A stretch of DNA of 34,281 nt from Spiroplasma melliferum (GTDB lineage Bacteria > Bacillota_I > Bacilli_A > Mycoplasmatales > Mycoplasmataceae): assembly GCA_005222125.1 (NCBI GenBank), contig CP029201.1, forward strand, positions 1 to 34,281, written 5' to 3'. Made by a program: the position numbers and the translations under genes. A model generated the notes under the pieces. The model was given only the letters and a program-made list of their open reading frames with translations, did no database searches and had not been told where the DNA came from. How positions within the stretch are numbered: the first letter of the stretch is position 1; each line of letters opens with the position of its first letter. Shown piece after piece: positions 2,229-31,364 of this stretch.

Positions 2229-2257
2229 TTGATAAATTTATTTATTTGTTGTACAAT
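2229..2257 (+). promoter_or_regulatory. Promoter of leader A
   Basis: TTGATA (2229-2234), a 17-nt spacer and TACAAT (2252-2257): near-consensus sigma-70-type boxes at ideal spacing. The start is expected near 2264, at the first leader hairpin. It lies directly downstream of the operon terminator. Confidence 0.65.
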
Positions 2258-2263
2258 ATAAAT

Positions 2264-2431
2264 GTTAGCGTTAAAAACGCTAGGGCAATTTAAAAATGGA
2301 AACACAACAAATTTTGAACTAAACTGTGTTTCCACAGACAATTTTAACATATTTTATTTAACTTAAAATGTGTTGTATCAATTATTATAATGTTTGTGGA
2401 AATAGCGGTCTGTTATTTCCCTTTTTATTTG
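2264..2431 (+). ncRNA. Leader A: structured RNA with intrinsic terminator
   Basis: Ordered elements are: hairpin P1 (TAGCGT/ACGCTA, about 2265-2281); P2, a perfect 10-bp stem TGGAAACACA (2297-2306) / TGTGTTTCCA (2325-2334); a 27-nt block 2328-2354 beginning GTTTCCACAGACAATTTTA, 26/27 identical to the adhesin leader; P3, about 11 bp with one G-U pair (left arm 2346-2356); and P4, a 9-bp terminator stem (2398-2406 / 2412-2420) with a GCGGT near its apex and a CTTTTTATTT tail. An AAAGGAG sequence lies just past the terminator (2439-2445) but no start codon is well placed after it. I recognise no known RNA family. Function could be attenuation of a lost gene, control of ssb, or a stand-alone RNA. 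Confidence 0.6.
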
Positions 2432-2718: not shown

Positions 2719-3141
2719 ATGAATCAATTTATCGGAATTGGTAGAACAACCAAAGATATAGAAATTAAACAAACAAGTACTGGGAAAGAATATGCCATAT
2801 TTCAATTGGCAATAGCACGCCCATATTCAACACAAAAAGAAACTGATTTTATCCCTTGTCAGGTTTGAAATAAACAAGCCGTAGTTTTACAAAAATATTG
2901 TCAAAAAGGTTCTCAAATTGCAATTACGGGCATTTTGCAATCTTTTAAAAATAAAGAAGATAAAACACAGTGAATAGTCCAAGTATCTAATTATGAATTT
3001 TTACATACAAATAATGACTTAAAAAAAGATATTTTACTATCTGAAAAATCAAATGAAATTATTGCCGAAGAGCAAGCAAATTATAGTTCAGAAGATATTA
3101 AAGAATTATTCAATGGTGATGATGCCATTTTATGAGATTAA
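2719..3141 (+). CDS. ssb: Single-stranded DNA-binding protein, 140 aa
   Basis: Binds and protects single-stranded plasmid DNA during replication and conjugative transfer. The OB-fold is recognisable from the start (MNQFIGIGRTTKDIE), through the YAIFQLAIAR strand and the DFIPCQVWNKQA segment, to the QIAITGILQSF strand, over roughly residues 1-100. A variable acidic linker follows. The tail ends DDAILWD: acidic, as in SSBs that recruit partners, but with Trp-Asp in place of the usual terminal Pro-Phe. Three UGA codons are read as Trp (in QVWN, TQWI and LWD), so standard-code gene calling misses it. The start is fixed by AGAAAGGAAA eight to ten bases upstream. It is monocistronic or paired with the next gene 142 nt downstream. 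Confidence 0.92.
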
Positions 3142-3283: not shown

Positions 3284-3937
3284 ATGCAACAATTACAAAA
3301 AGAAGAACAAGTCAATTACCACTTTGTTGAGATAAATGGGTTGAACTATAAAGTTATTAATCAACTTGATGAGAAAAAACATGTTTCTAATTTTTACTTA
3401 CCGAAAAAATTAGTTCGCCAACACCCTACCCGCAAAGACAGTTATAAAGTCAAAATTTATGACAAATTTATTTGTGTACCAAAAATAATGTGTTTTATTG
3501 ATAAAACTGGTAAATATTTTTTGGTTGGGATTGATATGTTTTTTACCTACTGAATTTATAACACGCGTGATAATAACAAATATCGCTTGGCCGGTTATCA
3601 AGCAATTAAAGACACTGCAATTAAAGAATTGCATTATTTAACTGTGTCTGCTAGAAGATACGAAAAAGAACAAGCAACAAACCCATTTTTAAGTGGGTTA
3701 ACTTACCAACAAGCACGCGAACAAATTTGCGCTGAAAGCGACAAATTAAAAGCAGAATACCAAACTTATGTACAAAGTAAGTATTCTGCTAATAACATTA
3801 AAAAATCATCAAACAGAGAAAATAATTCTCTTATTGATAAGTTTAACACACACTATGAAAAAAACAAGGGTGATCCACCAAAATTATCCGAAGAAGAACT
3901 CGACCAATTATTAGTGGAATTAGACAACTTAGACTAA
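3284..3937 (+). CDS. Hypothetical protein, 217 aa, next to the candidate origin
   Basis: No family recognised. The frame runs through one UGA (Trp, 3551-3553). The first 100 residues are predicted mostly beta (HFVEINGLNYKVI, KVKIYDKFICVP, KYFLVGIDMFFTYWIY) with basic patches. The second half is helical, and the end is strongly acidic (SEEELDQLLVELDNLD). There is no signal peptide. The ATG has a strong AGAAAGGAG site 8-10 bases upstream, preceded by a small CGGTT/AACCG hairpin. The gene lies between ssb and the hairpin block, so a replication or transfer-initiation role is plausible. In S. citri plasmids a protein called PE is needed for replication; I cannot tell whether this gene is its counterpart. 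Confidence 0.85.
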
Positions 3938-4219
3938 CTCCCCTATCGAGTTCTTCACTCCCCTATCAAAAAAAGTATAAGAACTTGCGTAAAACCACAG
4001 ATGTAGCAAGACAACGAATAAACAAAATTAAGATATGGTCATTATCATATCGTTTTTGCTATTTGGTAAATCACCTATTTTTATTTATCATTTTTCTTCC
4101 AATATATAACCAAAAATAAATACCATTACTATATCAAAACAACATAATTAATAAATTTTACATACTTTCTTAAATAAATTTAGCGGTAATTTTATTTAAA
4201 AAATACTAATATATAGTAT

Positions 4220-4262
4220 AATTAAATAAATTAATATTAAACTTTTATTAGTTTATTTAATT
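4220..4262. repeat. AT-rich 16-bp inverted repeat
   Basis: AATTAAATAAATTAAT (4220-4235) pairs with ATTAGTTTATTTAATT (4247-4262) with one G-T pair. It is followed on + by T-rich sequence, so it could also terminate transcription entering the hairpin block. Confidence 0.6.
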
Positions 4263-4272
4263 TTTTATTATG

Positions 4273-4374
4273 CTGCGGAACTACAAGCATTTTGGCACGC
4301 CAAGCACCCCAAACCCCGCACTCCCAACGTTGTTGATAGCACGGGGTTTGGGCTTAATGCTTGTAGTTCCGCAG
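4273..4374. repeat. GC-rich 102-bp stem-loop
   Basis: Perfect 19-bp arms CTGCGGAACTACAAGCATT (4273-4291) and complement (4356-4374). Inside them is a second perfect 11-bp pair CCCAAACCCCG (4308-4318) / CGGGGTTTGGG (4342-4352). It is strikingly GC-rich for this plasmid. Likely a replication or transfer origin structure. Confidence 0.8.
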
Positions 4375-4375
4375 T

Positions 4376-4431
4376 GGTGGTTATTTATTGGTTGTATTAA
4401 TTACAATTAATACAACCAATAAATAACCACC
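4376..4431. repeat. Perfect 56-bp palindrome
   Basis: 27-bp arms (4376-4402 and 4405-4431) are exact reverse complements around a 2-base centre, AC; the arm starts GGTGGTTATTTATTGG. A near-perfect palindrome of this size is uncommon outside origins and resembles the palindrome reported on pSKU146. Confidence 0.9.
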
Positions 4432-4437
4432 TAGTTC

Positions 4438-4474
4438 CTTTTTTCTTTTTGCCCGAGCCCTTAAAAGAAAAAAG
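4438..4474. repeat. 12-bp pyrimidine/purine inverted repeat
   Basis: CTTTTTTCTTTT (4438-4449) pairs perfectly with AAAAGAAAAAAG (4463-4474) around a GCCCGAGCCC-containing loop. It is the last hairpin before the replication-relaxation-like genes. Confidence 0.7.
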
Positions 4475-4543
4475 CGAACACAAAAAAGAAAAAACCCCAC
4501 CCTGTTAGTATGACAACGGTGGTTGGTAAGGAGTTGATATTAT

Positions 4544-4890
4544 ATGGGTGAACAAGAAAAAATATTGCTGTTGATAAATAGTTGGGGATATTAAACACCG
4601 AACAAATTAGTTTACTTTTAAATAAAAAAGAAAATGGTACATATAAATTTATTATGAAATTAGTTAGTAATAAGTTTTTAAATGTTGATACATTGCCGAA
4701 GAAAAAATTATTATACTTTAACTAGTAAAGCACCAAAGTCATTTAGGACGTGAGCATAAAAAAAAACATTAAAGTTAATTACTATGAACTTGCCCACCAA
4801 GATATGCTTATCAAATGACTTTGTAGTCAAACCGATATCGAGCACAACCAACTGATACTGTTCGTAATTTGTTGAGTAAAGAAGGTTTAA
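4544..4890 (+). CDS. Short replication-relaxation-like protein, frame broken in this copy
   Basis: Same gene as 19012-19356, where the frame is intact and the description is given. Here several single-base differences interrupt it: one T missing in the GGATATTTAAAC stretch near 4590, one extra A near 4705, an extra C near 4732 and an extra A near 4757. The homopolymer nature of most of these changes suggests sequencing or consensus error rather than a real pseudogene. Confidence 0.7.
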
Positions 4891-4891
4891 T

Positions 4892-5485
4892 ATGACAGAA
4901 AGTTTAAAAATTTTAGATTTATTAAATAAATGAGGATATTTAACAGCCGAGCAAATTGCATTGCTGTTAAATAAACCGATTGAAAGTGCAAAAACTAATT
5001 TAAAAACATTACAGAAAAAAACAACTTTACAAAATAGATAAAAACCACTCGCAAAAAACATTTATTTCCTTTCGCATAAGGGTAATACTTTTGTTGGGCG
5101 AGTTCATAAAAAAAACATTAAAGTTAATTACTATGAACTTGCCCACCAAGATATGCTTATCAAATGACTTTGTAGTCAAACCGATATCGAGCACTACCAA
5201 ACTGAGCGGGAGTTGAAAATGGAAAATGGTAATCTCAATGCTTACCCTGATTTAATCATCACTAAAAACGATGATAGCGAAATTTATGTTGAATTTGAGC
5301 GCACCCAAAAATCGCCCAGTCGCTTTAAGAAAAAGTTAGACGGACATACTAAATGATTACGTAATGGCGGGCAAATATATTGAATTACCCCAACGCAAAC
5401 ACTTGCTAACTGAATACAGCGGCAAATTGACAAAGATGACTTTAAAATAGAACTGCAACAAGTTATTATTTGATCCACACAATAA
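4892..5485 (+). CDS. Replication-relaxation-like protein, local frame disruption in this copy
   Basis: Same gene as 19358-19948. Three extra A bases between about 5015 and 5060 shift and then restore the frame, so only about 15 residues after the N-terminal helix-turn-helix are affected. These are probably consensus errors. Confidence 0.75.
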
Positions 5486-7665: not shown

Positions 7666-7669
7666 AAGT

Positions 7670-7851
7670 GATAGTAATTTATTGTTCAGATAAATTACTA
7701 TCGTGGAAACACTAGAAGCAAACTAGCGTTTCCACAGACAATTTTATCATATTTCTTGGTGTTATTTTTTAAGTAACATTGTGAAATATGATATAAATTG
7801 TGTTGTGGGAATAGTGCGGTGGTGCTATTCTCTTTTTTATTAAAAGAGAAT
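7670..7851 (+). promoter_or_regulatory. Leader B: structured RNA leader of the adhesin operon
   Basis: Elements in order: P1, a perfect 12-bp stem GATAGTAATTTA (7670-7681) / TAAATTACTATC (7691-7702); P2, 13 bp with one mismatch (7703-7715 / 7723-7735); the 27-nt block shared with leader A (7728-7754); P3, a perfect 11-bp stem TATCATATTTC (7745-7755) / GAAATATGATA (7783-7793); P4, a 9-bp terminator stem (7809-7817 / 7822-7830) with a T run. An alternative perfect 10-bp hairpin ATTCTCTTTT (7827-7836) / AAAAGAGAAT (7842-7851) uses the T run and the terminator's 3' arm, so the two cannot coexist. The ribosome-binding site (AGAAAGGA) follows at once. This looks like a transcription-attenuation switch; the signal is unknown. 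Confidence 0.65.
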
Positions 7852-7871: not shown

Positions 7872-10223
7872 ATGAAAAAATTATTAAGTATCTTAACCAT
7901 AACAACCTTGACAGCGAGCGTTCCTGCTCCGTTGCTTGCCAACACACCCTTAACTCGCAATAAACGCGATGTTGGGACAACTGCCAAAGATGTCACAAAT
8001 AATTACTGAACTTTTATTGCTAGTATAAGTAAAGAAGATGCTACAAAAAACAAAGATAAATATTATTTTGTTATTTATAAAAATAAAGGTGAAAGTAATT
8101 GACAAATATATAAGATGCAAATGGGAAAACCAAACGACAGACCTATTTTTGGTGAAACCGTTGAAAGTCATAAAGCATTTTATCGTTGGGATGGTGTTGG
8201 CGAACCTAATTTACCAGAAATAAATTCATTAACTGGTGAAATTATAAATTGAAAAGGTTTTGATATAAAAATAAAAGAAAAATATGGAAAAGAAAATATT
8301 GTTGTGTGAAATGGAATAAATGCAAGGGGAGATAATAATTTTTATTTTATTATTTGACGTGGTAGAAAAAGTGATAAATGAGAAATCGTAAAATATAAAA
8401 ACATAGGTCTAAATACTTCAAATACAATAATTGCAACATCTAAAACTGGTGCTGAATTAGATAGAGTAAGTCATAATTTTAGTTTTAGTAATGGTAGTGA
8501 ATGAGCAGATGCCAAAAATGATGATGGTACATATTTTAAATCAGTTTATCGTTGGGATGGAGTTGGTGAACCTAATTTACCAGAAATAAATCCTAACACT
8601 GGAAATATAACAAACTGAAAACAACCAACGAAAAATGATTTTCAACAAGGAATTTTGTTTTCGCTTGTGGATGGTTCAAAAACGGCGACTTGGTCTAATA
8701 ACGGTATGCGTTTGACAGTTGATGGTGAAACAAACATCAATATCAATAACCCAAATGTTACGGAAGTTTATTGAGATGGTTCTTTGCAACCGCAATTAAG
8801 TAAACAATGGAAAATCAATGTTAAACCCGAAACTGCACCACGAGATCATAAGTTAGTTATCAAATACAATATCAATGGGACAAAATACACAAGTGAAGAT
8901 ATTATGGTGTCGATGTTGGCAAAAATTGACTCAACACCAACACCAGTGCAACAAAATCTAAGTGATTTAATCAAAAACACTGATTTAGGAAATATCATTG
9001 ATAATAATGATGACACTATTTTCTTAGCAGTAAATAAGGCAAATAGTGAAATTATTGATGATTTTTCACAAATTGAAATAACAAAAAAAGTTAATCACTC
9101 TGCAACTTTATCAGCGAAACCAGATAGTAAAAGTTACAAAGGTTCAGTTGATATTAAATACAATGTGGTTCCGGCAACAGTGGTTGATTTAAAAATTGAA
9201 TTAAAACCAACTGTAAGCAGTGCGATAGTTAATAAAGACTATTTGGCACAACTTGACAGTAGTAAAATGACAAATAAAGTTGATACATTTTACTATGCGA
9301 ATAGTGAAAGTGTTATCACAATGGTTAAACCAACAGATAGCAGTGTGATAACTGGGGTGGTGTATGGTTGTGATGATAAATGAAATAAAACATCACAATC
9401 AAGCAACATTGACCCAGCAAAGGGTATTAAACTTGATGGGTCACAACTTGGAGCGGTTCAGGGAAGATATTTAATTGACTTAAAAAACGAACTAGGACAA
9501 ACAAATACTATTTATTTACAAATTCATAGTGAGAAAGATGAAAAAGCAAAAGCATATTGAAATACTGATAATGGTAAACAGTTTGAACAGTGAGCACAAG
9601 ACCAAGAACAAGGATACGAAAATATCCGTGGTTCTAGTGCTAGTCAATTGAATAATTTGTTTGAATTATCGAAGACTTGAAAACAAAGTTTAAAACATTT
9701 AGACCTAAAATTAGATAACTTTGTTGTTGATAACATTAAAAATGTTAGTCAAGATGAAATTGATAACTATAAAACAAAACTGCTTGCTAGTGTAAAAGCC
9801 CAAGTTGAAAAGTATGTTCCCGGTGTTGTAGAAAAGACCGACTATGTTATCAGCGTTGATAATCTTGTTGCGGGTGATTGAACTACAAGCAAAGATGTCA
9901 AAGTTCAAGCGGTTGATGGTAGTACAAAACTGTTAAGTTTTACTGTTAAAACTATTCCAGTGCAACAAAAAGAAGAAGTAACAGCACTAGCATCAACACC
10001 AGTATCAAGTGATAAGGGTGGAAAATCAATTTGAAAAATACTGGGGATAGTTGCTGGTTCGCTGGCGGGTCTTGGTTTGGCGTATTGGTTGTTTAAAAGA
10101 TTTGTCTTTAATAAATATTTTTTACCAAAAATAAAAAGACGCCGCCATCTTAAATTAGTTGAACAAGTTAGAAAAGAAGAAGCCGAAAAAGACGCTCAAA
10201 ACAACAAGGGAGGTGAAGAATAA
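7872..10223 (+). CDS. ARP/SARP-type surface adhesin, 783 aa
   Basis: Probable surface protein for attachment to host (insect vector) cells. Residues 1-25 are a signal peptide (MKKLLSILTITTLTASV...). A repeated unit of about 120 residues follows: the motif YRWDGVGEPNLPEIN occurs at residues 104 and 226, each preceded by a YYFVIY/FYFIIW strand and followed by TG-x-I-x-N-W. Such repeats resemble the N-terminal repeats ('sarpins') of S. citri SARP1/ScARPs. A large beta-rich ectodomain leads to one C-terminal membrane segment (about 720-742, WKILGIVAGSLAGLGLAYW) and a basic cytoplasmic tail (KIKRRRHLKLVEQVRKEE). The size, about 87 kDa, fits this family. Many UGA codons are Trp. Its last base is shared with the start codon of the next gene (TAATG), placing an adhesin at the head of the conjugation operon. 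The start follows AGAAAGGA and leader B. Confidence 0.88.
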
Positions 10224-10492
10224 TGATGACTTTGTTAGCGACAAGTGGGGTCGATGACTTACTTAACAAAATTTTAGGTATCGCAATGCCGGTGTTAATT
10301 GCCATCGCAGTTGTATCCGCAATTATTATGATTGGTGTTTATGCGATTGGGGGTAAATTTAACGCTGATAGTGGCAACCGCAAAGAAACAATTAAAAAAG
10401 TGATGTGGGTTTTAATTTGCTTGTTAATTGTTATTCTTGCGAGTGCGGTTGTCTTGGCGTTTAAAGATACTATCGCCCCAATCACAAGTTAG
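10223..10492 (+). CDS. Pilin-like VirB2-type conjugation protein, 89 aa
   Basis: Small membrane protein with two hydrophobic helices (about residues 15-42 and 58-82) joined by a short polar, charged loop (KFNADSGNRKETIKK). This is the size and topology of VirB2/TrbC-type subunits. Mycoplasma ICEs carry a similar pilin-like protein (Mbov_0395 family) directly before a large transmembrane protein, and the order is the same here. The start overlaps the adhesin stop by one base, with GGGAGGTGA inside the adhesin gene. There is no obvious cleavable signal peptide; the first helix may serve as one. The assignment rests on topology and synteny. Confidence 0.75.
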   Translation: MMTLLATSGVDDLLNKILGIAMPVLIAIAVVSAIIMIGVYAIGGKFNADSGNRKETIKKVMWVLICLLIVILASAVVLAFKDTIAPITS

Positions 10493-10503
10493 GTGGTGTA
10501 ATT

Positions 10504-12069
10504 ATGTTGTTACGAAAACGAAAACAAGATAATTTAACGGTTATAAAATCAAAAAAACCAATTTTAAAACAAGGGTTAGAGCGATTTGTAGCATATTATT
10601 TTAAAAAAATATTTACAATATTAGCAATTGCGATGATACCCTTGTTAATTATTGGTTGTATTGTGATTGCAATATTATCGGCGATATTGTGGTTTTTGCC
10701 AAATACTGAAACATCAAGTAACATTCAAACAGTTTTCTCTAATACTTTGAATGTTGAAACAGTAGAAACAACTGGCGGGTCAAACATAATGGGGAGCATT
10801 ATTGGCTGAGCGATAAATAGTTTTTGTGCTATTTTGTATCTTATTTTTATCAAACCGATTGTTTGATTGCTAGGTGGAATGCAAGATGTCGTCTACTTTA
10901 TTGGTGGGGGAGCTTTAAGCGAACAATTATTTAGTATGAATAATATTAGCACGATATATTGATTGCTGTTTGGTATTGCGATGGCAATGTTTATTGTCAT
11001 TATTGGCACAAAAGCGATTGCGTGAATGTATAACAATCGCCGCCACGAAATGAAAGCAGCGATAACAAATGTTCTTATTATCATTATTGCTATTCCGCTA
11101 ATACCGACATTGTTTATTATGGCAAATACAATTATGACAATGATTGTTAAATTGTTTTTGCAAAATGCTCCGATTGATACAAATAATATTGCTTTGGCGA
11201 TTTTTAATAGTAGTTTTATGAATGGTGTTCATCATTTTAGTTATATTCCCGTTTCGTGGACATTTTCAGATAGTGGTAATTTTAGTTATATTATTTGTTT
11301 GGTCTCGGAGTGTTTTATGGTTTATATTATGTTTACTGTTTGTATGTTTTTGTTTTGGCGGGTAATTGAATTGTTTATCTTATTGTGTTATTCGCCCGTG
11401 GTGGTTGTAATGAGTGTCGCCGACCAAGGACAACAATTTCGTAATTGAAAAGATATGGTCTTTGGGCGATTTATAAGTTATGCCTTTATGTTTATAACTT
11501 ATAACATATTTATTATGAGTATTGCGGTGTTAGGGCAAGTGGCAACATTTATGCCAAATTCTTTATCGCAACCAATCTTTATCTTACTTGGTATTTTTGC
11601 TTTTGGGTTTGCCGTTGCAAAATCACCACAAATTATAACGAGTTTAATTGGTGGTAATACAGCGATGAGCGATAGTATCGGTAATCTGATGTCCTTTGGA
11701 ATGGCAACTAACCTTGCCAAAATTGGGGGAAAATTCGCGTGAAAATCGGGTAAATTTGCTGCTCGCAATACAATTGGTAAACCAATTGGTTTAACCCAAG
11801 GGATAAGTCACGCGATGAAAAGTGGTACACCATTTAAAGAAGCAACAGCAGGAACTTTATTCGGTGGTTTTAACCCTAATACGGGTGGTGTTGCGGGTGC
11901 ATTTGCTGGTCAAGCAATTAAAACCAAAGATAAAGTTATGACAAATATCAGTGATTATCAAGCATTCAATGAACAACGAAACCAGAAAAACAATAAAGAT
12001 AGTGTTTTAGAGAAAGCAAGCACTAAAACAACAAAGAAAGATAAAGGAGACAAAAACAATGGAAAATAA
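10504..12069 (+). CDS. VirB6/TrbL-like polytopic membrane protein, 521 aa
   Basis: Likely inner component of the DNA-transfer channel. A basic N-terminus is followed by a hydrophobic segment (about residues 35-65) and then at least six more, in two groups (about 100-185 and 190-390). The C-terminal 125 residues are Gly/Ala/Lys-rich and hydrophilic (GGVAGAFAGQAIKTKDK, then KKDKGDKNNGK), presumably cytoplasmic. Size, topology and position between the pilin-like protein and the VirB4-like ATPase match the transmembrane protein of mycoplasma ICEs (Mbov_0396 family) and VirB6/TrbL. Several UGA codons are Trp (for example residue 102). Its start follows AGGTGGTG, 11 nt after the previous stop; its end overlaps the next gene by 11 bases. 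Confidence 0.8.
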
Positions 12070-14581
12070 CACAAAAATAATCACTAAAAAAGCAAGTAAA
12101 GTACGATTTACTGTCTCAAATGTTTTGGGCGGAATTGGTTGACCAGAACTTTTTATTATTTTTGTTGGCGTTGTTTTGATAACTTTATCTTTGACTTTGC
12201 TTGCAAAATTATCGCTAATTGCGGGAATTATTAGTGCTATTGTATTTGCTGTTTTGAATATCTTTTTCATAACACCAAATAAAAACGGTGATAAACTATA
12301 TTATGTTATTTTTATTGCCCTTGGTTTTTTATTTAAACCAAAAAAACACAACATAGAAAATGATAGCGAAATACAAATTATCAATAACCGTGTTGTTTTT
12401 GATAATAAACAAATTCTTATTTATAAAATAAATGCTGTTGATTTAACATTGTCAACGCAAGAAGAACGCAATACACCGATTTATGACTTTTCAAATTATT
12501 TGCGTGCCTTAAATTTTGATTTTGAAATCATCAAAATTGATAGTAAGTTGAATTTTGACAAAAATAAAAACTATCTTGCACAGACCTTAAAGCAAGATAG
12601 TTTAAAAAATTCACAAAAACATCAATTAAATAATTTTTTGTCGATGTCTGAATACTTGGAAAACCAAGATTTAAAGTTAGAACAAAATTATTATTTAATT
12701 GTTTTTACAAATAACAATGATAAAAAACTTGAATTATCCTTGTTATCATACAATCAACATCTTTCTTTGACTTTGCCAACAAGCAAAGAAATAAAGAAAA
12801 TTGTTGATAAAAAGATTATACCAACAAATTCAACAAACTCATCAGTAGCAACATCAATTAAAGAAACTGCAAAATATTTGAAACTGGATAACAATAAATT
12901 TGTTAGTTATTTTACTGTTAATCAATTTCCGTTGACTGTTAATGATATGTGATTAAGTAATTTTAGCGAAATAGAAAATGTCAATATTTCTATTCGTGTT
13001 CGGCATTTAGACAATATGACAGCGTTTAAATTGCTTGACCGTGCCATCCGAAGAGCACAAGACCAAGAAACTAAAAAAGCAAGTGAAGATATTGAATATA
13101 ACTTATATTTACAAAACTTTAATGAGTTATTACAACTTATTCAAGTTGGGGGTGAAACCTTGAAAATGGTTTCAATTGTTTTCACTTGCTTTGCTGATAG
13201 TAAAACTGATTTAGACCAAGTTGTTTCAAATTTAAAAAATGAAATGATAAGAAATCGTTTTACTATTAATGATTTGACATTTCGCCAGTTTGCAACTTAT
13301 CAATGTTTGTTATTTAACAATAATGATAAATTAAAAAACATTGAGCAAGAAATGGCGACCATTACTCTTGCGAGTGCTTGACCGTTTCCAACTAAACCGT
13401 TAAATGATCCACAAGGACTAATAATTGGGGAAAATGAACAACTACAACCAATCATATTTGACATCAAAACCAAGTCATCAATAAGAGCAAGTCATAACGC
13501 TTTTATTGTGGGTCAGATGGGGTTTGGAAAAACATTTAATGTTAAAAAACAATTAAATTGATTATATTGTAATAACACAAAAATCTATATTATTGACCCC
13601 CAACGCGAATATGGTGGTTTTGCCAATTATCACGGTGGGGAAATTATTGAATTTGGTAATAACCCAAAGGCAAAAATTAACCCCTTAGAAATCTTTACTG
13701 ATAATTTTTCCGAACATATTTTGTTGTTAGAACAATGGTTTAAAAATTTGTATAGTGATTTAACAAATATTGACCTTGCTAAATTGCAAGAATATATTAT
13801 TCAGTTGTATAAAAACTTTAAAATTACTGCTGATACAAATTTAAGTAAATTAACTCGAAAAGATTATCCAATTTTAAATGATTTATATAAATTGGTATAT
13901 CAAAAAGAACAAGATACTTTGTTAGAAAAAATGTTGTGAAAACTAACCAAAGGAGCAGATGGCACATTGTTTAATGGTGTTAGTACCTTAGAAATTAAAA
14001 GCGACTTGATTGTTTTTGATATTTACAATATGGCAAAATCAAAAACAATTGCTAACGCACAAATGTATTTGTTGTTAGCGTTGCTTGACCGTGTTATGAA
14101 AAAGAATAAGAAAAATAATTTAACCTTGCCACCGGAAGAACAAAGTTGAGTTTGTATTGCGGTGGATGAAGCACATTTATTAATTAACCAAGATAATCTG
14201 CTTGCCCTTAATTATTTATTTACTTTATCGAAAACTTGTCGTAAATTTAACGGAATTTTATATATTTTAACGCAAAGCATTGGCGACTTTACCCAGCACG
14301 GAGAAAATGTTAAACGCCAAGCGCAGGGAATAATTGAACAGTGTACTTATCAATTTATTCATCACTTGAATTCAATTGGTTTGCAAAATTATACTGAATT
14401 ATTGACTGATAACAATATGATAAATGCCTATGAGAAAAATGTTATTTTAACTCCTAAAAAGGGACTGTGTTTGTTTAGTATTAATGATAAACGCTATATT
14501 TTGCAAGTTATCGCAACAAGTGAAGAAATCAAAGCAATTGGTACCCAAGAAGACATTAATAATTTAGGAAAGGAAATATAG
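12059..14581 (+). CDS. PrgI/VirB3-VirB4 fusion: TraE-like conjugation ATPase, 840 aa
   Basis: Powers the DNA-transfer channel. Residues about 1-100 hold two or three membrane helices ending NGDKLYYVIFIALGFLFKPKK, which resembles the PrgI (VirB3-like) domain fused to the N-terminus. A VirB4 N-terminal domain follows. The ATPase domain has Walker A GQMGFGKT at residues 485-492, then IIDPQREYGG as in VirB4/TraE proteins, Walker B VCIAVDEAH ending at about 706, and a Gln-containing ILTQSIGDF motif. Mycoplasma ICE ATPases (TraE, Mbov_0397 family) are the closest family I recognise. The ATG at 12059 follows AAAGGAGA and overlaps the preceding gene. At least five UGA codons are read as Trp; without them the gene falls into five pieces. 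Confidence 0.92.
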
Positions 14582-14584
14582 TTT

Positions 14585-14920
14585 ATGGAAACAAAACAAA
14601 ACGAATGAATAACAGTTAACATTTTGGCACGCAGAAAACTAAAACGCGAAACCGAGAAAGCCGTTTTATTTTCTATTCCTAAACATAAAGGTTTGTCGGT
14701 GTGAATTAATAAAAAATGTATTCACGCTTTGCGTAACGGAAAAGTGTTTGCTGTTGGTGTTAAAAAGAATGATGAATATACAATATGAACATATGACCCT
14801 GATAGCAAGCAACATTTAAAAAGTGAGATATGACAAGGTCAACACTTAATCAATTTGTATCAAAATGAATTTAAAAAAATTGTTGCTTGACTTAACAAAC
14901 AACAATCGCTAAATAAATAA
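14585..14920 (+). CDS. Hypothetical 111-aa conjugation-operon protein, copy 2
   Basis: Identical to 115-450. Here the full upstream VirB4-like gene is present and its stop is 3 nt before this start. Confidence 0.85.
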
Positions 14921-14958
14921 AATCGTTTATAACGCATTGAGTTGATATCTTATTCGTT

Positions 14959-14990
14959 AAAATAACGTTCGATGCGCCACAGAGGACGAT
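14959..14990 (+). repeat. 32-bp inverted repeat, left member, copy 2
   Basis: Identical to 489-520; partner at 20576-20607. Confidence 0.7.
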
Positions 14991-15017
14991 TTTTTTATAG
15001 AAAGGTAGGTGTTTAAA

Positions 15018-16532
15018 ATGTGAAAAAAAATTAAAAATTGGCGCGATAAAAATATTAGCAATAAAATTTTTTATTGATTTATTTTTATTTTAGTAATACC
15101 GTTTATGCTTGTATGTTTGATAAATTGTGCTTCGGCAATTATTATTATGTTTTTAAAATACCATACACTAGATTTTAAAAACTTTTATATTGCTTATGCT
15201 GATAAATACAGTTGGTTAATTTCAATTGTTTTGTTTATTATTGCATTCTTATTTTTCTTGTGATTTTATGTAAGTCATAAAATAGATAATATGGATAGTC
15301 CTAAAACAAAACAACAAAAATCAAACAAAGCAAGTGATAAAGAATTTAAAACATTACAGTTAAAAATGCTTGCGCTTAATAATAGGTATGGTATTCCAAA
15401 AAATAATTTAACTCAACATACTTTATTGGTTGGTACAACTGGGAGTGGTAAAACAACAACATTAATGTTTTTAGTAAAACAATTAACTCAAATATTTAAA
15501 CAGACCACAATAATAATTGATGGTAAGGGGGATATTGATTTAATTAATAAAGTTAAACAACTAGACCCTAGTGCCTTTGTTTGAGAAATTGGTGGCACAA
15601 CGGAATATAATCCGTTTGCGACAAAAGATAGTGTTGTATTATCTGATAAGATAATGTCGTTGTTTGATTTTTCCGAACCGCATTATGAAGCATTGGTAAA
15701 TGATTATGTGTTGATTTTAACCGAAACATTAATTAATAAAAATATTGATTTAACATTAGAAAATATTATTAAATATTTTGATATTTCAGAATTAAAACAA
15801 TTAATTAGTAAAAAAAACAGCAATTATGAATATTTAGAAAAAATCAATGAAGATGATATATTAGGTATGCGTTCGCGCTTGAATGTTTATCGCCAACAGT
15901 TAAAAATAAGTATCGGTATTAATAACAACTTATTAGAATTGATTACTAAACATAAAACGATTTTGTTTAGTATTAATTCGTTGATGTATCCCAAATTGGC
16001 GGGTTCTGTCGGAAAAATCATTATCCAAGACTTAAAAGAATTAACCACCCTAAAATCAGTTAATCAAAAAATTAACATTGTATTAGATGAGTTTAATGTC
16101 TTTGCAAGTGAAACCATTGTCAACTTGATAAATAAGTCGCGTAGTTTTAATTATCAATGTTTTTTGTCTTTCCAAACAATCAACGACCTAAAAACAAACA
16201 ATATGAATTTAACAGACACTATTTTCGGAAATGTTAGCACTATTGTTTGTCATAACATTAAAGACCCGAACACGGCGGAATATGTCGCTAGTGTCTTTGG
16301 TACCCAAGAAACCGAAAAACTAACTCGTCAACTTGACTTTAAAAACAACACCGCTGATATGGGTTCAGTGCGTGCGGTGGATGAGTTTATTGTTCACCCG
16401 AACGACCTTAAAACCCTTAAAATTGGTGAATGCTATTTTAAAACCACTCTTTCGAGTGGCAAGTTATTTATTAAAAAAATTGCGGTTGACCCTACTTGTT
16501 TAGATGGTTTAATTCAACACTTAAACAAATAA
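15018..16532 (+). CDS. VirD4/TraG-type coupling ATPase, copy 2
   Basis: Same as 548-2062 apart from G at 16268 where copy 1 has C at 1798. The Pro codon is unaffected. Confidence 0.92.
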
Positions 16533-16698: not shown

Positions 16699-16901
16699 TT
16701 GATAAATTTATTTATTTGTTGTACAATATAAATGTTAGCGTTAAAAACGCTAGGGCAATTTAAAAATGGAAACACAACAAATTTTGAACTAAACTGTGTT
16801 TCCACAGACAATTTTAACATATTTTATTTAACTTAAAATGTGTTGTATCAATTATTATAATGTTTGTGGAAATAGCGGTCTGTTATTTCCCTTTTTATTT
16901 G
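16699..16901 (+). ncRNA. Leader A with promoter and terminator, copy 2
   Basis: Identical to 2229-2431: promoter boxes at 16699-16727, RNA from about 16734. Confidence 0.6.
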
Positions 16902-18407: not shown

Positions 18408-19011
18408 CTCCCCTATCGAGTTCTTCACTCCCCTATCAAAAAAAGTATAAGAACTTGCGTAAAACCACAGATGTAGCAAGACAACGAATAAACAAAATTA
18501 AGATATGGTCATTATCATATCGTTTTTGCTATTTGGTAAATCACCTATTTTTATTATCATTTTTCTTCCAATATATAACCAAAATAAATACCATTACTAT
18601 ATCAAAACAACATAATTAATAAATTTTACATACTTTCTTAAATAAATTTAGCGGTAATTTTATTTAAAAAATACTAATATATAGTATAATTAAATAAATT
18701 AATATTAAACTTTTATTAGTTTATTTAATTTTTTATTATGCTGCGGAACTACAAGCATTTTGGCACGCCAAGCACCCCAAACCCCGCACTCCCAACGTTG
18801 TTGATAGCACGGGGTTTGGGCTTAATGCTTGTAGTTCCGCAGTGGTGGTTATTTATTGGTTGTATTAATTACAATTAATACAACCAATAAATAACCACCT
18901 AGTTCCTTTTTTCTTTTTGCCCGAGCCCTTAAAAGAAAAAAGCGAACACAAAAAAGAAAAAACCCCACCCTGTTAGTATGACAACGGTGGTTGGTAAGGA
19001 GTTGATATTAT
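18408..19011. other. Candidate origin region, copy 2
   Basis: Counterpart of 3938-4543, two bases shorter because of single-base differences around 18553-18585 in the AT-rich part. Hairpins are at 18688-18730, 18741-18842, 18844-18899 (the 56-bp palindrome) and 18906-18942; all arms are identical to copy 1. Confidence 0.6.
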
Positions 19012-19356
19012 ATGGGTGAACAAGAAAAAATATTGCTGTTGATAAATAGTTGGGGATATTTAAACACCGAACAAATTAGTTTACTTTTAAATAAAAAAGA
19101 AAATGGTACATATAAATTTATTATGAAATTAGTTAGTAATAAGTTTTTAAATGTTGATACATTGCCGAAGAAAAATTATTATACTTTAACTAGTAAAGCA
19201 CAAAGTCATTTAGGACGTGAGCATAAAAAAAACATTAAAGTTAATTACTATGAACTTGCCCACCAAGATATGCTTATCAAATGACTTTGTAGTCAAACCG
19301 ATATCGAGCACAACCAACTGATACTGTTCGTAATTTGTTGAGTAAAGAAGGTTTAA
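19012..19356 (+). CDS. Short replication-relaxation-like protein, 114 aa (wHTH half only)
   Basis: N-terminal-half paralogue of the next gene. Residues about 1-70 form a winged helix-turn-helix (ILLLINSWGYLNTEQISLLLNKK, then YYTLTSKAQSHLG). A conserved segment NYYELAHQDMLIKWLCSQTDIEH then appears, after which the protein ends in an unrelated tail (NQLILFVICWVKKV). The PD...ExE half of its neighbour is missing. The start follows AAGGAG, just after the hairpin block, and the stop is 1 nt before the next ATG. The tail covers, in another frame, a segment reading TVRNLLSKEGLI that looks like a further helix-turn-helix remnant, so the junction is a recombination scar or a deliberate truncation. It could act as a regulator or DNA-binding partner of the full-length protein. 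Confidence 0.75.
19222..19311 (+). repeat. 90-bp direct repeat, first copy
   Basis: Identical over 90 bases to 19568-19657, while the flanking parts of the two genes are diverged. It encodes about 30 residues including AHQDMLIKWLC. Confidence 0.9.
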
Positions 19357-19357
19357 T

Positions 19358-19948
19358 ATGACAGAAAGTTTAAAAATTTTAGATTTATTAAATAAATGAG
19401 GATATTTAACAGCCGAGCAAATTGCATTGCTGTTAAATAAACCGATTGAAAGTGCAAAAACTAATTTAAAAACATTACAGAAAAAACAACTTTACAAAAT
19501 AGATAAAACCACTCGCAAAAACATTTATTTCCTTTCGCATAAGGGTAATACTTTTGTTGGGCGAGTTCATAAAAAAAACATTAAAGTTAATTACTATGAA
19601 CTTGCCCACCAAGATATGCTTATCAAATGACTTTGTAGTCAAACCGATATCGAGCACTACCAAACTGAGCGGGAGTTGAAAATGGAAAATGGTAATCTCA
19701 ATGCTTACCCTGATTTAATCATCACTAAAAACGATGATAGCGAAATTTATGTTGAATTTGAGCGCACCCAAAAATCGCCCAGTCGCTTTAAGAAAAAGTT
19801 AGACGGACATACTAAATGATTACGTAATGGCGGGCAAATATATTGAATTACCCCAACGCAAACACTTGCTAACTGAATACAGCGGCAAATTGACAAAGAT
19901 GACTTTAAAATAGAACTGCAACAAGTTATTATTTGATCCACACAATAA
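19358..19948 (+). CDS. Replication-relaxation-family-like protein, 196 aa
   Basis: Likely DNA-processing or replication-initiation protein. Order of elements: winged helix-turn-helix (LLNKWGYLTAEQIALLLNK, about residues 8-65), a linker with H-x-x-x-I-K-V and AHQDMLIKW (about 75-95), then a C-terminal half with YPDLIITK (about 120), EIYVEFERTQKS (about 135), a Lys-rich helix and a strand QIYWITPT. This layout fits the Replic_Relax family (PF13814) as I know it. The PD...E-x-E...K spacing is also reminiscent of PD-(D/E)XK nuclease cores, which is inference. Five UGA codons are Trp. The ATG follows AAAGAAGG. The gene sits beside the hairpin-rich candidate origin, on which it probably acts. Intact only in this copy. 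Confidence 0.75.
19568..19657 (+). repeat. 90-bp direct repeat, second copy
   Basis: Identical to 19222-19311. Recombination between them would attach the first gene's helix-turn-helix head to this gene's catalytic-looking half and delete 346 bp. Confidence 0.9.
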
Positions 19949-22099: not shown

Positions 22100-22314
22100 T
22101 TGGCTTCCTTACTCGTTAAAATTATATAAAGTGATAGTAATTTATTGTTCAGATAAATTACTATCGTGGAAACACTAGAAGCAAACTAGCGTTTCCACAG
22201 ACAATTTTATCATATTTCTTGGTGTTATTTTTTAAGTAACATTGTGAAATATGATATAAATTGTGTTGTGGGAATAGTGCGGTGGTGCTATTCTCTTTTT
22301 TATTAAAAGAGAAT
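22100..22314 (+). promoter_or_regulatory. Leader B with promoter, copy 2
   Basis: Identical to 7637-7851: promoter boxes 22100-22128, terminator stem 22272-22293, competing hairpin 22290-22314. Confidence 0.6.
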
Positions 22315-31161: not shown

Positions 31162-31364
31162 TTGATAAATTTATTTATTTGTTGTACAATATAAATGTTA
31201 GCGTTAAAAACGCTAGGGCAATTTAAAAATGGAAACACAACAAATTTTGAACTAAACTGTGTTTCCACAGACAATTTTAACATATTTTATTTAACTTAAA
31301 ATGTGTTGTATCAATTATTATAATGTTTGTGGAAATAGCGGTCTGTTATTTCCCTTTTTATTTG
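31162..31364 (+). ncRNA. Leader A with promoter and terminator, copy 3
   Basis: Identical to 2229-2431. Confidence 0.6.

Follow-up and report, generated by a model that had tools for sequence, protein, structure and literature searches.

The plasmid repeat and its genes

The window is the whole stretch of DNA that was analysed, positions 1-34281 of a Spiroplasma melliferum contig, and it consists of about 2.37 head-to-tail copies of a plasmid of about 14.47 kb. One copy matches the next at 99.9% identity, the differences being mainly a few 1-base indels. The host assembly has three contigs, 1.41 Mb in total. Two structured leaders, A and B, recur in the window because it is a tandem repeat of the plasmid (Table 1). 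On contig C1 of the same genome the spacing of the leaders also suggests a repeat, in this case with a related plasmid as its unit (about 23 kb).

The adhesin gene behind leader B is the first gene of a presumed type IV transfer operon. The genes that follow it are, in order, a T4SS pilin of the Mbov_0395 type, Mbov_0396, a VirB4-like ATPase (Mbov_0397 type), a 111-aa ORF and a TraD/TraG-like coupling protein. Leader A precedes an SSB/mobilisation-type module. Upstream of it there is a terminator-like site at 2184-2213, a position that fits the end of the transfer-operon unit. Since leader B stands before the adhesin and transfer genes and leader A before the SSB gene and the 217-aa ORF, the leaders head both halves of the plasmid's transfer module.

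Two irregularities in the replication-relaxation (MobC-like) gene region must be noted. One-base indels cluster at 4086-5053 of copy 1 relative to 18556-19517 of copy 2, and they disrupt the MobC-like reading frame in copy 1, which is either an assembly error or real decay. The region also holds a direct repeat of about 100 bp (about 4755-4855 and 5105-5205, 97-98% identical). This repeat suggests that the relaxation genes (in copy 2, ORFs 18991 and 19358) have been duplicated or are recombining.

Table 1. Leaders, their predicted parts and the genes behind them in the window
Feature	Position	Strand	Remarks
Leader A (predicted class A attenuator), whole	2265..2426	+	
A putative promoter TTGATA-17-TACAAT	2229..2257	+	consensus scan
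A P1, hairpin at predicted 5' end	2265..2283	+	3/7 pairs altered on both sides
A P2	2298..2333	+	strand 1 2298-2306, strand 2 2325-2333; competitor of the antiterminator
A P3, fixed hairpin	2334..2397	+	2334-2340 with 2391-2397; 2345-2356 with 2364-2375
A antiterminator extension of P3	2329..2402	+	2329-2340 with 2391-2402; excludes P2 and P4
A P4, intrinsic terminator (predicted)	2398..2426	+	hairpin 2398-2420, then T run
SSB	2719..3141	+	downstream of leader A
217-aa ORF	3284..3937	+	downstream of leader A, after SSB
Leader B (predicted class B attenuator), whole	7668..7838	+	
B P1, 13-bp hairpin	7670..7702	+	3 pairs altered on both sides
B P2	7703..7735	+	strand 1 7703-7715, strand 2 7723-7735; conserved A.C mismatch
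B P3, long hairpin	7739..7800	+	covarying upper stem 7757-7764/7774-7781; 6 pairs altered on both sides
B antiterminator extension	7728..7812	+	7728-7736 with 7804-7812; excludes P2 and P4
B P4, intrinsic terminator (predicted)	7807..7838	+	hairpin 7807-7832, then T run
Adhesin, ScARP-like, 783 aa, spiralin domain	7872..10223	+	starts 33 nt after leader B
Rest of presumed transfer operon	10223..16532	+	intergenic gaps <=88 nt
Leader A, second copy	16735..16896	+	start inferred from repeat offset
Leader B, second copy	22131..22301	+	start inferred from repeat offset
Leader A, third copy	31198..31359	+	start inferred from repeat offset

Architecture of the leaders

A first-pass annotation made from the letters alone had placed two related leaders here, and direct reading of the sequence finds both where it put them, with their parts in the order it gave. 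Each has a 5' hairpin (P1), the GGAAACAC/GTGTTTCC hairpin (P2), a shared block, a hairpin starting CATATTT (P3), and a terminator with a T run (P4). The block of 27 nt common to A and B is 96% identical (E = 7e-6 within the 1.4 Mb genome). The annotation also held that conservation is higher in the stems than in the sequence separating them. This is right for the hairpin loops, which are hypervariable (loops and junctions are the least conserved parts of the leaders), but the stem strands of the shared core are themselves strongly conserved in sequence. What the annotation overlooked is the alternative pairing and the position before adhesin and transfer genes.

Both leaders fold better than 200/200 dinucleotide shuffles, with z = -4.8 for A and z = -10.5 for B. 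Terminator-like sites number 6 in the leader A region and 1 in the leader B region, each against 0.1 expected. Both leaders have a predicted intrinsic terminator placed upstream of genes, and a putative promoter was scored for A only. This promoter is weak taken alone, with 3 promoter-like sites around leader A against 4.5 expected by chance. The consensus scan of the leader B region scored no sigma-70-like promoter upstream of the leader.

A second conserved structured RNA lies between leader A and the SSB gene, at approximately 2508-2685, with copies at +14470 and +28933. It is represented by 18 distinct sequences, with few compensatory changes and no Rfam match. Its hairpins are an AATGAC-N6-GTCATT stem with a hypervariable loop, a long closing stem CTATACAC/GTGTATAG and two inner hairpins. 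It has its own terminator, GGTAGARTGA/TCATTCTACC followed by a T run, and this terminator and the closing fold compete; a promoter-like TAAAAT lies upstream. The element is probably the inverted repeats (IRR) described in a 2008 paper on the pSci plasmids (PMC2386487). Pairing between the leaders and this RNA was rejected, as the duplex energy was no better than that of shuffles.

Members, classes and range

A covariance model trained on class B alone, when run over the whole genome, recovers leader A at E = 3e-5; it also finds further Spiroplasma members, and the E-values of our covariance models are rough. We take A and B to be homologous on this ground. Fuzzy and architecture searches of the sequence set examined gave 52 distinct cores, and BLAST with leader B hits 83 places in 31 plasmid records, exclusively from Spiroplasma. 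With the covariance model, members were found in 6/14 genomes of the genus and in 9/320 genomes of the order, where they occupy 2/50 genera and include chromosomal copies. A sample of the phylum has members in 5/392 genomes, all in the same two genera as the order-level matches. An exact-pattern scan of about 85,000 species, from which records near the window's own genome may have been omitted, returned Spiroplasma only (phoeniceum, poulsonii and a Nebria symbiont). All named relatives found are Spiroplasma, organism and database names being as deposited. A phage or viral origin was rejected, since leader B has no blastn match among phages and the family has no exact-pattern match in IMG/VR.

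The proposal that this is an undescribed structured RNA element has thus fared well. Homologues are many on Spiroplasma plasmids and chromosomes, there are some compensatory changes among them, and no Rfam family matches. Nor is there reason to overturn the view that it is no known riboswitch or T-box, as Rfam 15 has no family above the gathering cut-off for the leaders and permissive searches gave only matches far below it.

The family has three classes. Class B precedes adhesins that start MKKLLS-, with the start codon mostly 22-35 nt past the element, and there are several such elements per plasmid. In class A the SSB/217-aa module follows about 220-430 nt behind the element. Two class A elements depart from this, L044:5913-6107 and L056:5361-5557 (minus strand), which lie 28 nt before an ORF for a predicted membrane protein (MINFxISLLKLGYY...). 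Class C (L053, L092, L093 and L100-L102) belongs to the second genus-level group and stands before adhesins. It has no P1 and a different P3, but it keeps the four-strand logic described below despite full replacement of the surrounding sequence.

Several individual members are unusual. L049:37508-37664 (minus strand) is a natural hybrid in which P1 and the 5' part of P2 from class B are fused to the 3' part of class A, which implies recombination inside the shared core. In the class A element L048:25533-25707 a conserved 16-nt ATCAATTATTATAATG segment of the P3 3' strand is tandemly duplicated, and the same segment is missing from L048:17635-17742. Some copies in the family appear decayed, or have a damaged P2 or terminator.

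Two mutually exclusive predicted folds

The 3' arm of P2 (strand 2) is complementary to strand 1 of P2 and also, as an extension of P3, to the 5' arm of P4 (strand 3). Because strands 2 and 3 are shared between the folds, P2 with P4 (termination) and the long P3 (read-through) are mutually exclusive. In class B (28 sequences) the cells hold standard pairs in 95.7% of cases for the P2/P4 fold and in 96.3% for the P3-extended fold, against 38-52% in a control with the partners slid. The extended fold is 96.7% paired in class A (20 sequences). By computation, a competing fold that excludes the terminator is present in both classes. It must be noted that a GGAA-like stretch opens both P2 and P4, so the alternative pairing could partly stem from the similarity of these two hairpins.

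The calculated energies are equilibrium values, and during transcription P2 forms first; read in this way, the means before the terminator is complete are -53.9 kcal/mol for the P2 fold and -52.6 for the extension in class B (1.3 favouring P2), and -26.9 and -28.7 in class A (1.8 favouring the extension). For the window's own leaders the calculated equilibrium probability of the P2 fold at the decision point is 0.65 in B and 0.01 in A. Once the leader is complete, B prefers termination by about 8 kcal/mol in the calculation whereas A stays balanced.

The helices leave almost no room between them. In leader A the last position of P2 is 2333, P3 takes up 2334-2397, and P4 follows directly from 2398. 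With so little space between P2, P3 and P4, one fold can turn into the other by branch migration. At the base of P3, class A has seven pairs that fit either fold, and they could be the anchor from which such migration starts.

Covariation

Class B has a covariation score of 0.139, compared with 0.077 +/- 0.005 for shuffles and at most 0.057 for slid partners. Nine pairs are altered on both sides, all of them in P1 and P3, a count for which shuffles give 8.6 on average and which 285/500 of them reach. Within the class, P2, P4 and the extension hardly vary. We argue this is what one should expect if each strand must fit two partners.

Changes in these strands are seen when the classes are compared. 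Across 22 sequences, which are related so that the counts are inflated and are not independent events, P2 and P4 together show double-sided change in three pairs and in 14 cells (shuffles 6.5 +/- 1.6, 0/500). On the same footing the extension has one double-change pair (shuffles 1.1) and 8 cells (3.4 +/- 1.3, 0/500). Single positions tell the most. The outer base of strand 2 is C when strand 3 has G, or U when strand 3 has A, and its strand 1 partner is often the matching G or A; the triplet across strands 1, 2 and 3 is G-C-G in 7/22 sequences and A-U-A in 8/22. At another place in the core, strands 3 and 4 pair as G-C in 14 sequences, A-U in 6 and G-U in 2, while a constant U in strand 2 pairs with both versions of strand 3. 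The class C member L100 has replaced G-C by A-U in the core of P2 and retained the antiterminator pair as U.G. The change of C-G to U-A in the extension is seen in class C and also in L044/L056 of class A, hence in two lineages or more. Covariation supports the structure, if not overwhelmingly by every measure.

Is any switch needed at all? One could read each leader as a constitutive partial terminator that has stabilising 5' hairpins and no regulation. The terminator and the 5' hairpins are clear, and no ligand or factor was found. However, a simple terminator leaves unexplained why one strand is complementary to two partners in three diverged classes, and it leaves the balanced energies unexplained too. 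We consider this reading unlikely.

Other explanations for the leaders

Equally unlikely, in our judgement, is antisense control as in pT181/pIP501 or pCF10, where a counter-transcript would choose between the folds. Plasmid attenuators of this sort are known, exclusive folds are compatible with them, and the hairpin loops are hypervariable as in plasmid antisense systems. On the other hand, the genome has perfect complements of P2 strand 1 nowhere but on the minus strand of the leaders, and a search for a dedicated gene found none. The class B region has no scored minus-strand promoter-like site, and the sole one near leader A (2645-2617) lies in the downstream RNA. An antisense RNA encoded in trans was rejected, since outside the leaders there are only weak chromosomal matches to the complement.

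The leaders could also act as DNA, their inverted repeats serving as a transfer origin or as replication signals. Saillard et al. 2008 (PMC2386487) proposed such a role for the IRR upstream of the pF gene in pSci plasmids, as a possible oriT or replication signal. In favour of it, the plasmids that carry the elements also have transfer genes, and an SSB gene lies behind class A. Against it, class B elements sit a short distance before adhesin start codons, in several copies per plasmid and on chromosomes as well. Each element also has a T run on the coding strand, and two exclusive folds are maintained. The wobble pairs point the same way. In P3, P4 and the extension there are 223 G.T cells on the coding strand and 3 A.C cells, an excess that fits folding of the + strand and is unexpected for a DNA cruciform. 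We regard a DNA role as improbable.

A metabolite riboswitch or T-box is less probable still. A terminator/antiterminator platform within a 5' leader is what such an element would use, but there is no Rfam match, the loops and junctions that would bind a ligand are the parts conserved least, and class C does without P1. A ribosome-coupled attenuator with a leader peptide hardly deserves consideration and was rejected, because the open frame GTG...TAG that ends in P2 of the window's leader B is retained in 9/28 class B elements, which is chance level, no ATG frame is common to the members, and the reading frame is random in the family.

Proposed mechanism

We argue instead that both leaders are probably cis-acting transcription attenuators of one undescribed family that switches between P2/P4 and the P3 extension. 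The sequence lends support in that both predicted folds exist, are conserved, exclude each other and are placed before genes. In the nascent RNA P2 and then P3 would form in order. If P2 stays closed, P4 would form behind P3 and transcription would end ahead of the gene. If P2 is open, strand 2 would pair with strand 3, extending P3 and blocking P4, and read-through would reach the adhesin and transfer operon (B) or the SSB module (A). Every base pair gained by P3 would be one lost by P2 (and P4), so branch migration would come at low energy cost. The outcome would depend on what stabilises or destabilises P2 during the brief interval that precedes completion of the terminator.

We infer that the leaders work at the RNA level with termination as their resting state, and that the balance is set by some factor or by the speed of elongation. 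The input could be a protein, a cis antisense RNA or the elongation rate. A small-molecule aptamer is unlikely because the loops vary freely. Between classes there are differences in P1 and in the upper part of P2, so the inputs they answer to may differ as well. An RNA thermometer was rejected, as the calculated balance moves by only about 1 kcal/mol (B) or 1.5 (A) between 20 and 37 C.

Why a switch before these genes would matter

ScARP adhesins help S. citri to interact with its leafhopper vector (PMC4804543). Dubrana et al. 2016 reported that scarp2b transcripts vanish and return in plants while the coding and upstream sequence stays identical, and in their words no existing mechanism accounted for it (PMC4804543). 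A two-state leader is a testable candidate for such on/off control of scarp genes after initiation; scarp2b itself is located on pSci5, which lies outside the sequences compared. One can imagine a single factor, encoded by a plasmid or the host, that acts on all leader copies in a cell. The adhesin, type IV transfer and SSB modules of co-resident plasmids would then be switched together as a regulon, and scarp genes would go on and off with no change in sequence. We offer this as a possibility, and a rather doubtful one. That the same element also precedes the transfer and SSB modules points to attenuation as the means by which these plasmids keep their conjugation genes silent. Little RNA-based regulation has been described for these insect- and plant-associated bacteria.

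Comparison with known systems

The rep attenuators of pT181 and pIP501 and the prgQ attenuator of pCF10 are switched by counter-transcribed antisense RNA. Like the leaders, they are plasmid-borne, lie ahead of replication or transfer genes, and can fold as a terminator or an antiterminator but not as both. The leaders differ in that no dedicated antisense RNA was found for them, and in that a single family recurs on many plasmids ahead of two kinds of operon. Amino-acid attenuators of the trp/his type use four strands that pair 1:2, 2:3 and 3:4, with 2:3 as the antiterminator. This pairing scheme is common to them and the leaders, but the leaders have no leader peptide and carry an additional fixed hairpin, since P3 separates strand 2 from strand 3 and almost touches P2 and P4.

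canT of Tn916 and conAn of pLS20 work by processive antitermination, in which RNA polymerase is made resistant to later terminators (PMC11658703). They too put RNA-based control of termination into a conjugation operon, as we propose for the leaders, but the leaders hold their own terminator plus its competitor. The IRR lies upstream of the same gene, and there is probably overlap with the class A leader, with the structured RNA just downstream, or with both. The class A hairpins have probably been seen before, then, but as DNA repeats. The accessible text on the IRR (PMC2386487) treats DNA inverted repeats, with no attenuator and no link to scarp leaders. The open papers searched, a set that most subscription journals fall outside, contain no description of attenuator or structured leaders before scarp genes. 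On present evidence we would class the leaders as an undescribed family within a known kind, the intrinsic-terminator transcription attenuator.
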